This document shows, piece by piece, positions 16,289 through 18,524 of a stretch of 46,814 nucleotides of DNA (its first letter is position 1; the number at the start of each line of letters is the position of its first letter). The DNA lies in assembly GCA_945957555.1 (NCBI GenBank), contig CAMFLX010000020.1, positions 1 through 46,814 on the forward strand, in the 5' to 3' direction. The stretch comes from an uncultured Cytophagales bacterium. GTDB lineage: Bacteria > Bacteroidota > Bacteroidia > Cytophagales > UBA9547. The position numbers and the translations under genes are program-made. The notes below the pieces were generated by a model. The model was given only the letters and a program-made list of their open reading frames with translations, searched no databases and was not told the DNA's origin.

Positions 16289-16822
16289 TTAGGCGGGGAT
16301 CATTTGTTTGATTCTAATAATGGTAGCTTTATGGGTTTCGATATTCATTCCGCACTGCCATTTGTCATTTGTCCCTACGATTTGATACACTACTGTATAT
16401 TTTGCAGGAGCAAAAGTTTGAAGGTTCTTGAATTCCTCAGGTACTTGATCTTCTTTTTCTGGTACGAGGAAACTTCCATCAGCCTTATTAAATATACTGC
16501 CACACCCGTCAAGCATAGGTTCTCCAGAATAGGAGTAGGTAAGAAGCTCTTTGATGTCGTTTTTGTTGGGGCAAGCACCCTTGGTGAATTTCAGAACCCC
16601 TGCCGCAGAAGCTTCGCAGGCATTGCCATAGGTAACGTCATTACAGCCACATACAGGATCGTAGTTCATGGTACAAAAACAAGTCGTACATACCTTTTTA
16701 GGATCCACACACTCTTCTTTCGGTTTGGGATCTTCGTTGTCAAAAGGAAATTTGTTACACGCAGTGAAGCATCCTACAGCTAGGAGCATGATCACTATGA
16801 TGGGGTTTTTTAGTTTTTTCAT
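16289..16822 (-). CDS. lipoprotein with Kazal-type protease inhibitor domain
   Basis: A 177-residue protein. A lipoprotein signal peptide has the lipid Cys at residue 22 (FTAC). Residues about 38-85 form a Cys-rich module reading CFCTMNYDPVCGCNDVTYGNAC and ending KGAC, the Kazal pattern C-x3-PVCG-x-DG/DVTY-x-N-x-C. Kazal domains bind the active site of serine proteases, so a surface protease inhibitor is likely. Residues about 90-177 form a second domain (DGCGSIFNKADGSFLVP, KWQCGMNIETHKATIIRI) that resembles short Bacteroidota lipoprotein domains and has no name I know. It is transcribed away from the leader-peptide region. Confidence 0.82.
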   Translation of the reverse strand: MKKLKNPIIVIMLLAVGCFTACNKFPFDNEDPKPKEECVDPKKVCTTCFCTMNYDPVCGCNDVTYGNACEASAAGVLKFTKGACPNKNDIKELLTYSYSGEPMLDGCGSIFNKADGSFLVPEKEDQVPEEFKNLQTFAPAKYTVVYQIVGTNDKWQCGMNIETHKATIIRIKQMIPA

Positions 16823-16965
16823 TTTTACTGTTTAGTTGAAGATGTTTTCTTCCTAGACACATCATTACACTACAAAGGTTGCATTTGGTTTCTGAAAAAT
16901 CGTAAAACACACTCCAAATAAGTATTTGAGGCTTTTTGTACACTGCGGAAAAAATAATATAACAG

Positions 16966-17000
16966 TTTGGTGTAGTGTGTTTATAAAAAGTATATATTTG
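16966..17000 (+). promoter_or_regulatory. promoter of the tandem-attenuator transcript
   Basis: TTTG at 16966-16969 and TATATTTG at 16993-17000 are 23 bases apart, matching the Bacteroidota -33/-7 pattern TTTG...TAnnTTTG. The first leader ATG lies 11 bases beyond the -7 box, so the 5' UTR would be very short. Confidence 0.6.
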
Positions 17001-17011
17001 TGTACAATAAT

Positions 17012-17068
17012 ATGAAAAACATTCTTTCAAATATTCAAGTCGTGGTCGTCATATTCTCTCAAGAATAG
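17012..17068 (+). CDS. leader peptide 1, valine-rich, 18 residues
   Basis: ATG to TAG gives MKNILSNIQVVVVIFSQE. Four Val codons in a row (17039-17050), then Ile, with more Ile and Leu earlier, are typical of attenuator leaders for branched-chain amino acids. The stop codon overlaps the sequence GGGGCT (17068-17073), which can pair with the 5' arm of the next terminator (AGCCCC, 17109-17114). A ribosome stalled at the Val codons would leave GGGGCT free and block the terminator. A ribosome reaching the stop would cover it and allow termination. It is too short to be a normal gene. Confidence 0.75.
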   Translation: MKNILSNIQVVVVIFSQE

Positions 17069-17107
17069 GGGCTCGATAGATATATTTGTTATATAAAAAG
17101 ATATTCT

Positions 17108-17132
17108 AAGCCCCGCATGCGGGGCTTTTTTA
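17108..17132 (+). terminator. attenuator terminator 1
   Basis: A perfect 20-base palindrome (17108-17127, core GCCCCGCATGCGGGGC) followed by a T-run. It lies 40 bases after leader 1 and 10 bases before leader 2. Confidence 0.85.
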
Positions 17133-17141
17133 TTGCAAAAA

Positions 17142-17222
17142 ATGAAAAGAACAAAAATTAAATATAGTGTGGTAGCAGTAGTGGTCACAGTCGTGGTGTT
17201 AACAACATCTCGAGCGGGGTAG
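17142..17222 (+). CDS. leader peptide 2, valine-rich, 26 residues
   Basis: Starts MKRTKIKYS, then VVAVVVTVVVL, then TTSRAG before TAG (17220-17222). Eight of its residues are Val, with one Leu. Bases 17210-17218 (TCGAGCGGG), just before the stop, can form nine pairs with 17251-17260, with one bulged A. That is the 5' arm of terminator 2. The geometry is the same as for leader 1, so this is a second complete attenuator. The Thr codons around the Val runs may add a secondary Thr signal, but Val dominates. Confidence 0.78.
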   Translation: MKRTKIKYSVVAVVVTVVVLTTSRAG

Positions 17223-17247
17223 CTATTGTTTTAATAAAATAATTCTG

Positions 17248-17279
17248 AAGCCCGACTCGAGTGAGTCGGGCTTTTTTTG
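17248..17279 (+). terminator. attenuator terminator 2
   Basis: AAGCCCGACTC (17248-17258) and GAGTCGGGCTT (17263-17273) pair perfectly around GAGT, followed by a run of seven T. It ends 26 bases before the aminotransferase ATG. Confidence 0.88.
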
Positions 17280-17305
17280 TGCATTTACGTATAAAAATCA
17301 TAGAT

Positions 17306-18499
17306 ATGGGAACGTGGCTTGAACAACAATTTTCGAAGAGGTCTCAGGGGATTCCTCCTTCATTCATCAGGGAGATTTTAAAGGTAACATCTTCTCCTGA
17401 TGTTATTTCGTTTGCGGGTGGTTTGCCCAATCCGGCATTCTTCCCTATAGAGGCTTTTAAAGTCTCCACACAGAGAGTCTTGGAGATTGAAGGGAAGAAG
17501 GCTTTGCAATATTCGGTAACAGAAGGAGATCCTGATCTGAGGGCTTGGATTGCGGCATACTACCAACAAAAGTTTGGTATGGAAGTGAAACCTGATGAAA
17601 TTCTCATAACTAGTGGCTCTCAACAAGCATTAGATTTGGTGGGCAAGCTTTTTATAGAACAGGATGACAAAGTTTTAATGGAAAAGCCAACATATTTAGG
17701 AGCCATTCAGTGTCTTTCACAATATCAACCCACTTGGGCAGAGGTTGCGCTTGAAGCTGATGGTGTAGATATTGCAGCACTGGAACAAGTTTGCGTACAA
17801 GACAAACCAAAAATGATGTATGCTATTCCTAATTACCAAAATCCAAGTGGCGCATGTTATGGTGAGGAAAAGAGAGCTCAAGTGGCTAGGATCCTCAATG
17901 AAAACAAAGTTATCCTCTTGGAAGACGACCCTTACGGAGAATTGAATTTTACGGGTGCTTTACACACGCCGCTTAGGAAGTTGTATAAAGAAGGTACATT
18001 GTTGATGGGATCGTTTAGTAAGATTGTAGCTCCTGGATTAAGACTTGGATGGATTGTTGGCGAAAAGGAGGTAATTGCAAAATTGACGATCCTGAAACAG
18101 GCTTCAGATTTGCACAGTAATTATTTCTCACAGAGGATGTTGTTGGATTATTTAATTCATAATCCCATAACAGAGCATATTGGTAAAATCACAGCTCACT
18201 ATAAAGCGCAATGTGAATGGATGCAGGAATGTATTCAAAAGTATTTTCCGAAAGAAGTAACTTATATCGCTCCTGAGGGAGGTATGTTCTTGTGGCTTGA
18301 TCTTGGTAAAATTAATGCAAGAGCTTTGTTGAAGCAGTGTATGGAAGAAGATAAAGTGGTCTTTGTGCCGGGAGATCCTTTCTATATTACTGCAGAGGCG
18401 GGTATGGACAAGGCTAGACTTAACTTCTCTAATGGTACCAAGGAGAAAATACAGGAAGGGATTAGTAAGATCGGGAAACGACTACATGATATGTTATAA
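17306..18499 (+). CDS. PLP-dependent aminotransferase (fold type I, LysN/MocR-like), likely branched-chain
   Basis: A 397-residue aminotransferase. Seen: the N-terminal substrate strand (ISFAGGLPNPAFFP), YSVTEGDPDLR, GSQQALDL, the PNYQNPSG motif with the Asn that contacts PLP, the Asp in EDDPYGEL, the Schiff-base Lys239 in GSFSKIVAPGLRLGW with the phosphate-binding Arg, and a C-terminal Arg (KARLNFSN) for the substrate carboxylate. By family it could act on 2-aminoadipate, leucine, aromatic or other amino acids. The Val-rich attenuators upstream argue for transamination of 2-oxoisovalerate and related branched-chain keto acids. Start: ATG 17306; the open frame to 17261 begins inside the terminator. 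It is monocistronic. Confidence 0.88.
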   Translation: MGTWLEQQFSKRSQGIPPSFIREILKVTSSPDVISFAGGLPNPAFFPIEAFKVSTQRVLEIEGKKALQYSVTEGDPDLRAWIAAYYQQKFGMEVKPDEILITSGSQQALDLVGKLFIEQDDKVLMEKPTYLGAIQCLSQYQPTWAEVALEADGVDIAALEQVCVQDKPKMMYAIPNYQNPSGACYGEEKRAQVARILNENKVILLEDDPYGELNFTGALHTPLRKLYKEGTLLMGSFSKIVAPGLRLGWIVGEKEVIAKLTILKQASDLHSNYFSQRMLLDYLIHNPITEHIGKITAHYKAQCEWMQECIQKYFPKEVTYIAPEGGMFLWLDLGKINARALLKQCMEEDKVVFVPGDPFYITAEAGMDKARLNFSNGTKEKIQEGISKIGKRLHDML

Positions 18500-18524
18500 T
18501 AAAGGGGGCATAGCCCCCTTTATT
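18498..18524. terminator. shared terminator overlapping two stop codons
   Basis: Twelve-base arms (AATAAAGGGGGC and its complement) around ATA. The left end overlaps the aminotransferase stop and the right end overlaps the stop of the convergent gene. Confidence 0.85.

Follow-up and report, generated by a model that had tools for sequence, protein, structure and literature searches.

Why should one aminotransferase gene be preceded by two short, valine-rich reading frames, each followed by a terminator hairpin? This question was raised by a locus in the window, the whole stretch of 46,814 nt that was analyzed. The original prediction had recognized in it the logic of ribosome-mediated attenuation, with two valine units. 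Based on the anatomy of the units, shuffled controls and a comparison of related loci, we consider it very likely that two ribosome-mediated valine attenuators stand in series on one transcript, ahead of one monocistronic aminotransferase gene.

Anatomy of the locus

The features of the locus are collected in Table 1. Both leaders were found as described before. Leader 1 has 18 codons with four consecutive valines (ATG at 17012, TAG at 17066-17068), and leader 2 has 26 codons with eight valines (ATG at 17142, TAG at 17220-17222). Each is followed by a terminator hairpin, as predicted; both hairpins are of the intrinsic type and carry T runs. In unit 1, the predicted complementarity of GGGGCT to AGCCCC (17109-17114) is real and slightly longer than claimed. 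The duplex is lengthened to ten pairs by TAGA (17077-17080) and TCTA (17105-17108). For unit 2, nine pairs had been proposed at the leader stop. The pairing with the terminator arm held up, whereas the count has to be changed to ten pairs with one bulged A. Shuffled leader-stop regions matched the duplex energy in 1.0% of cases for unit 1 and in 1.6% for unit 2.

Table 1. Sequence features of the predicted doubled attenuator locus in the window
Feature	Position	Strand	Basis
Lipoprotein-like gene, divergent from aminotransferase	16289-16822	-	
Bacteroidota-type promoter, -33 TTTG (16966-16969) and -7 TATATTTG (16993-17000)	16966-17000	+	sequence and pattern scan
Leader peptide 1, MKNILSNIQVVVVIFSQE, Val codons GTC GTG GTC GTC	17012-17068	+	ORF reading
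Antiterminator 1, 5' strand, GGGGCT (17068-17073) and TAGA (17077-17080), overlaps leader 1 stop	17068-17080	+	pairing and folding
Antiterminator 1, 3' strand, TCTAAGCCCC, AGCCCC being also the 5' arm of terminator 1	17105-17114	+	pairing and folding
Intrinsic terminator 1, AAGCCCCG-CATG-CGGGGCTT, T run (hairpin 17108-17127, 8 bp, 4-nt loop)	17108-17131	+	
Leader peptide 2, MKRTKIKYSVVAVVVTVVVLTTSRAG, eight Val	17142-17222	+	ORF reading
Antiterminator 2, 5' strand, CTCGAGCGGG, ends at leader 2 stop	17209-17219	+	pairing
Antiterminator 2, 3' strand, CCCGACTCGAG, within terminator 2	17251-17261	+	pairing
Intrinsic terminator 2, GAAGCCCGACTC-GAGT-GAGTCGGGCTTT, T run (hairpin 17247-17274, 12 bp, 4-nt loop)	17247-17279	+	
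LysN / 2-aminoadipate-type class I/II PLP aminotransferase, 397 aa, regulated gene	17306-18499	+	database/profile comparison
Hairpin and T tail after aminotransferase stop, probable transcript end	~18501-18522	+	read from sequence, GC hairpin

The promoter elements are spaced by 23 nt in the window and by 20-21 nt in Cytophaga-type orthologues. In a pattern scan, the Bacteroidota promoter motif was also detected directly before leader 1 in several orthologues. The same scan revealed no complete second promoter between units 1 and 2. Within unit 1 of the window, TATATTTG is repeated as a solitary -7-like element, for which a -33 partner is lacking. Thus both attenuators should share one RNA, and the ATG of leader 1 would lie only a few bases from the transcription start site. 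We also observed that ATATATTTGT at the promoter -7 (16992-17001) is repeated in the loop of antiterminator 1 (17080-17089), and that orthologue L007 has a TATATTTG after leader 1 as well.

Both leader reading frames and both terminators sit between the divergent lipoprotein-like gene and the aminotransferase gene. In the former, a Cys-rich stretch, DPVCGCNDVTYGNACEA, looks by eye like a Kazal-type inhibitor domain. The aminotransferase gene is followed by a GC hairpin with a T tail and then by a gene on the opposite strand, and it is therefore monocistronic, in agreement with the original prediction. The nearest solved structures to its product are archaeal multi-substrate and Thermus 2-aminoadipate (LysN) aminotransferases; the enzyme reached none of the NCBIfam cut-offs shown. 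The predicted attenuators give indirect evidence that this LysN-type enzyme may serve valine (branched-chain) metabolism, with valine as a putative substrate or product.

We considered the enzyme as a replacement for IlvE and rejected this. The window genome retains an IlvE_II branched-chain aminotransferase, which has no leader of this kind, as well as a PabC-like enzyme. Nearly all relatives retain a PF01063 enzyme of IlvE_II size. Thus a simple replacement of IlvE is not supported. The scan used for the aminotransferase detected no Val attenuator on ilvB, ilvC or ilvD of the window genome, and none was seen by eye upstream of ilvD. Among the genes inspected, Val attenuation in this genome was therefore seen only on the aminotransferase. 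In one genus (L218, G142:C1), the aminotransferase orthologue is followed at a distance of ~1.9 kb by an ilvB-type acetolactate synthase gene; the two are separated by a gene on the opposite strand.

Chance controls, pairing and codon choice

As a control, the region 16950-17305 was shuffled 3,000 times with preserved dinucleotides. Two Val-rich leader and terminator units were never obtained, and a single unit was obtained once. In the rest of the window, on both strands, the same leader filter passed two further leader-like reading frames, neither of them Val-rich. Hairpins of the AAGCCC...GGGCTTTTT type occur at 27 sites in the 6.25 Mb draft genome (reversed control, 0), and two of these are the terminators of units 1 and 2, lying 140 nt apart. 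An Rfam scan of the window gave no family at the gathering score, and hence no covariance-model match to a T-box or riboswitch. The identical 29-nt terminator-like hairpin, AAGCCCCGACAGACGTGTCGGGGCTTTTT, was noticed twice in the genome, at sites far apart (G000:C2:79244-79272, minus strand, and G000:C298:3067-3095, plus strand).

Co-variation was analyzed by permutation in 25 units from which near-duplicates had been removed. Leader-stop regions were paired with their own or with permuted terminator arms. Matched pairs gave a summed energy of -366, compared to a permuted mean of -260 (SD 14), and none of 20,000 permutations was as low, which bears out the compensatory changes that the original prediction had named as a check. 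As a rule, the best partner of a leader-stop region is the terminator arm of the same unit, and the complementarity is maximal 4-12 nt upstream of the point where the leader stop codon ends. Individually, 26 of 33 units had an antiterminator shuffle p < 0.05. Pairing was weak or non-significant in L010, in the second units of L007, L013 and L015 and in the first unit of L025. Judged from these comparisons, antiterminator strand and terminator arm have diverged in a compensatory manner across loci, of which close relatives are not fully independent.

The two window units were then folded as they would be before synthesis of the terminator 3' arm, with a ribosome footprint placed either on the Val run or on the stop. 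When the ribosome occupied the Val run, upstream pairing of the terminator arm had a mean probability of 0.87 in unit 1 and 0.65 in unit 2. With the ribosome on the stop, this pairing fell to 0.02 and 0.01, and the terminator formed at 0.94 and 0.97, respectively. In both units, the computed antiterminator is thus mutually exclusive with the terminator, freed by a stalled ribosome and masked by a ribosome at the stop. When the full-length terminator was folded at equilibrium, it was favoured even with a stalled ribosome. The switch must therefore be kinetic, as in classical attenuators. Across loci, the Val run and the antiterminator strand are mostly separated by 9-26 nt. Such a spacing is compatible with a ribosome footprint that extends 12-15 nt from the P site (PMC3641672).

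Valine makes up 17.5% of leader residues and 4.2% of residues in the aminotransferases of the loci. The second-ranking residue, alanine, reaches 11.8% compared to 6.2% in the enzymes. Codon choice is biased beyond the residue. GTC accounts for 51 of 116 leader Val codons (44%) but for only 16 of ~260 (6%) in the enzymes of the same loci (Fisher p 1e-17), and GTG for 33% versus ~15%. GC3 is lower in the remaining leader codons than in the enzymes, and base composition therefore does not account for the GTC/GTG excess. Thus the stalling codon looks selected. According to theory, the isoacceptor with the most sensitive charging should be the one that reads regulatory codons (PMC1183508). The GTC bias fits this theory of selective isoacceptor charging, with GTC as the presumed most sensitive codon, and offers a natural test for it. 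In L009, L011, L044 and L047, Leu, Ile or Ala are as abundant as Val in the leaders, and the sensed signal may therefore be broader at these loci.

The codon data also bear on the possibility of an AND gate, in which unit 1 would respond to tRNA-Val(GAC) and unit 2 to tRNA-Val(TAC), or each unit to a branched-chain amino acid of its own, in place of a steeper response to one signal. Genes for both tRNA-Val(GAC) and tRNA-Val(TAC) were found in the window genome, and the GTC share in the window is 3/4 in unit 1 and 2/8 in unit 2. Across the tandem loci, however, the shares are alike (15/33 vs 19/54, Fisher p 0.37). A split of isoacceptors between the units was rejected on these numbers, and we regard two separate inputs as improbable.

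Distribution of the doubled layout

Besides the window, the doubled layout was found upstream of orthologues at 12 convincing and two probable loci. The orthologues share 43-52% protein identity with the window enzyme and belong to other Bacteroidota families. The convincing loci comprise a Cytophaga-like group (L007, L013, L015), a second genus (L014, L016, L017, L019), another family (L010, L009, L011), Desertivirga, by name of a different order (L025), and a Bacteroidetes MAG (L047). L012 was counted as probable because no start codon could be resolved for the Val-rich frame of its unit 1, although this unit has a hairpin that matches, and L044 because its unit 1 is weak. No unit was seen upstream of L008, L022, L056, L064, L076, L084 and L156, nor at any of ~60 sampled homologues outside the Bacteroidota. 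The orthologues themselves are patchily distributed. They occur in 17 of 390 genomes of the order (E <= 1e-85), in one of 10 of the family and in two of 395 of a class-wide draw, the window being counted in for the latter two.

The leader peptides of the orthologues have little in common except their Val runs. As the original prediction would require of related genomes, Val codons, the position of the leader stop and the complementarity of antiterminator and terminator are kept in otherwise unalike leaders. On a tree, the doubled label was strongly clustered (~5 changes vs a shuffled mean of 14). With ~5 changes needed and weak deep forks, this tree does not demonstrate a single gain. By sequence comparison, the doubling appears to be an inherited, conserved trait of the aminotransferase gene in Cytophagales and some other Bacteroidota rather than an oddity of one genome. 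Since distant relatives keep the doubled switch despite near-complete sequence change, it is probably functional.

Four loci (L018, L020, L021, L033) have a single, gene-proximal unit, as would be expected if only unit 2 worked and unit 1 were a relic or duplicate whose terminator merely reduced constitutive expression. We regard this reading, too, as improbable. In at least ten other loci, unit 1 retains the Val codons, the stop-proximal strand and the matching terminator arm, and its antiterminator is often stronger than that of unit 2 (L013, L007, L014-L019, L047). GTC-rich Val runs are kept in unit 1 as well, which is unexpected for a relic. The least probable reading, with attenuation as an incidental effect, takes the hydrophobic leaders for real small proteins or the terminated transcripts, predicted at ~125 and ~270 nt from the terminator positions, for regulatory sRNAs; against it, the peptides are unconserved beyond Val richness, the pairing logic and stop position are conserved, and selection acts on codon choice beyond the residue.

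Proposed serial attenuation and related systems

Under serial valine attenuation, transcription would begin directly upstream of leader 1. With charged Val-tRNA, a ribosome reaching the leader 1 stop would cover the antiterminator strand, and terminator 1 would end the transcript. A shortage of valine would instead make the ribosome stall ~15-25 nt upstream, in the GTC/GTG run. The stop-proximal strand could then pair with the terminator 5' arm, and RNA polymerase would continue. At leader 2 the decision would be repeated, and the aminotransferase would be expressed only when both terminators have been passed. Basal leakage would thus equal one readthrough multiplied by the other. Purely to illustrate the arithmetic, two units that each change from 0.05 to 0.8 readthrough would give 0.0025 to 0.64 in series. 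Doubling may therefore yield a steeper or staged response to Val-tRNA charging, as originally proposed.

Classical leader-peptide attenuators are single, and discussion of their sensitivity has mainly concerned the number and the choice of codons in that single leader. The window locus shares with the enteric ilvGMEDA, ilvB and leu leaders (PMC1183508) a leader reading frame rich in the regulated codons, an antiterminator opposed to an intrinsic terminator and the use of a sensitive synonymous codon. In contrast to these, it has two complete units in series, a simple three-segment layout with the antiterminator strand on the leader stop, a monocistronic LysN-type aminotransferase gene as target and a nearly pure valine signal. 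In other Cytophagales (L157-L159, L161-L163), branched-chain attenuators precede PF01063 ilvE-type aminotransferase genes, with V/I/L-rich leaders such as MLKRNLTISLTSLLVVVTVVVLIRN and MLRSLSISSLSIIVLVVVVVLSD and a terminator after the leader. Unlike the window locus, these are single units, mostly ahead of an adjoining ilvE-ilvD pair and not of a lone gene. In G013 (L160), a possible tandem ahead of ilvE-ilvD was set aside, its second leader being unclear.

Tandem attenuators with two short reading frames in one leader are known from Salmonella mgtCBR, where mgtM and mgtP sense ATP and proline, act additively and do so without intrinsic terminators (PMC3641672). The window likewise has two short reading frames in one leader, each belonging to an attenuator. 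However, each of the two is Val-rich and each unit carries an intrinsic terminator; with no isoacceptor split across loci, two different signals as in mgtCBR were not found. Tandem T-boxes and tandem riboswitches for the same ligand have been proposed to act as a digital, pseudo-cooperative switch (PMC12452182). They resemble the window in that identical signals control serially, but there the RNA senses tRNA or ligand directly, whereas here the ribosome would be the sensor. In the open-access papers searched, we found no conserved pair of ribosome-mediated attenuators for the same amino acid. Therefore, we file the locus as a ribosome-mediated attenuator of a new, doubled variant.

We lean towards the view that such loci form a class of serial same-amino-acid ribosome-mediated attenuators, long kept doubled under sequence turnover, in which multiplied readthroughs would bring leakage close to zero and make the response to valyl-tRNA charging cooperative-like. 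The finding extends ribosome-mediated attenuation in the Bacteroidota, where the papers found describe little of it. A conserved pair with one input would provide a direct test of whether connection in series brings steepness, lower leakage or noise control.
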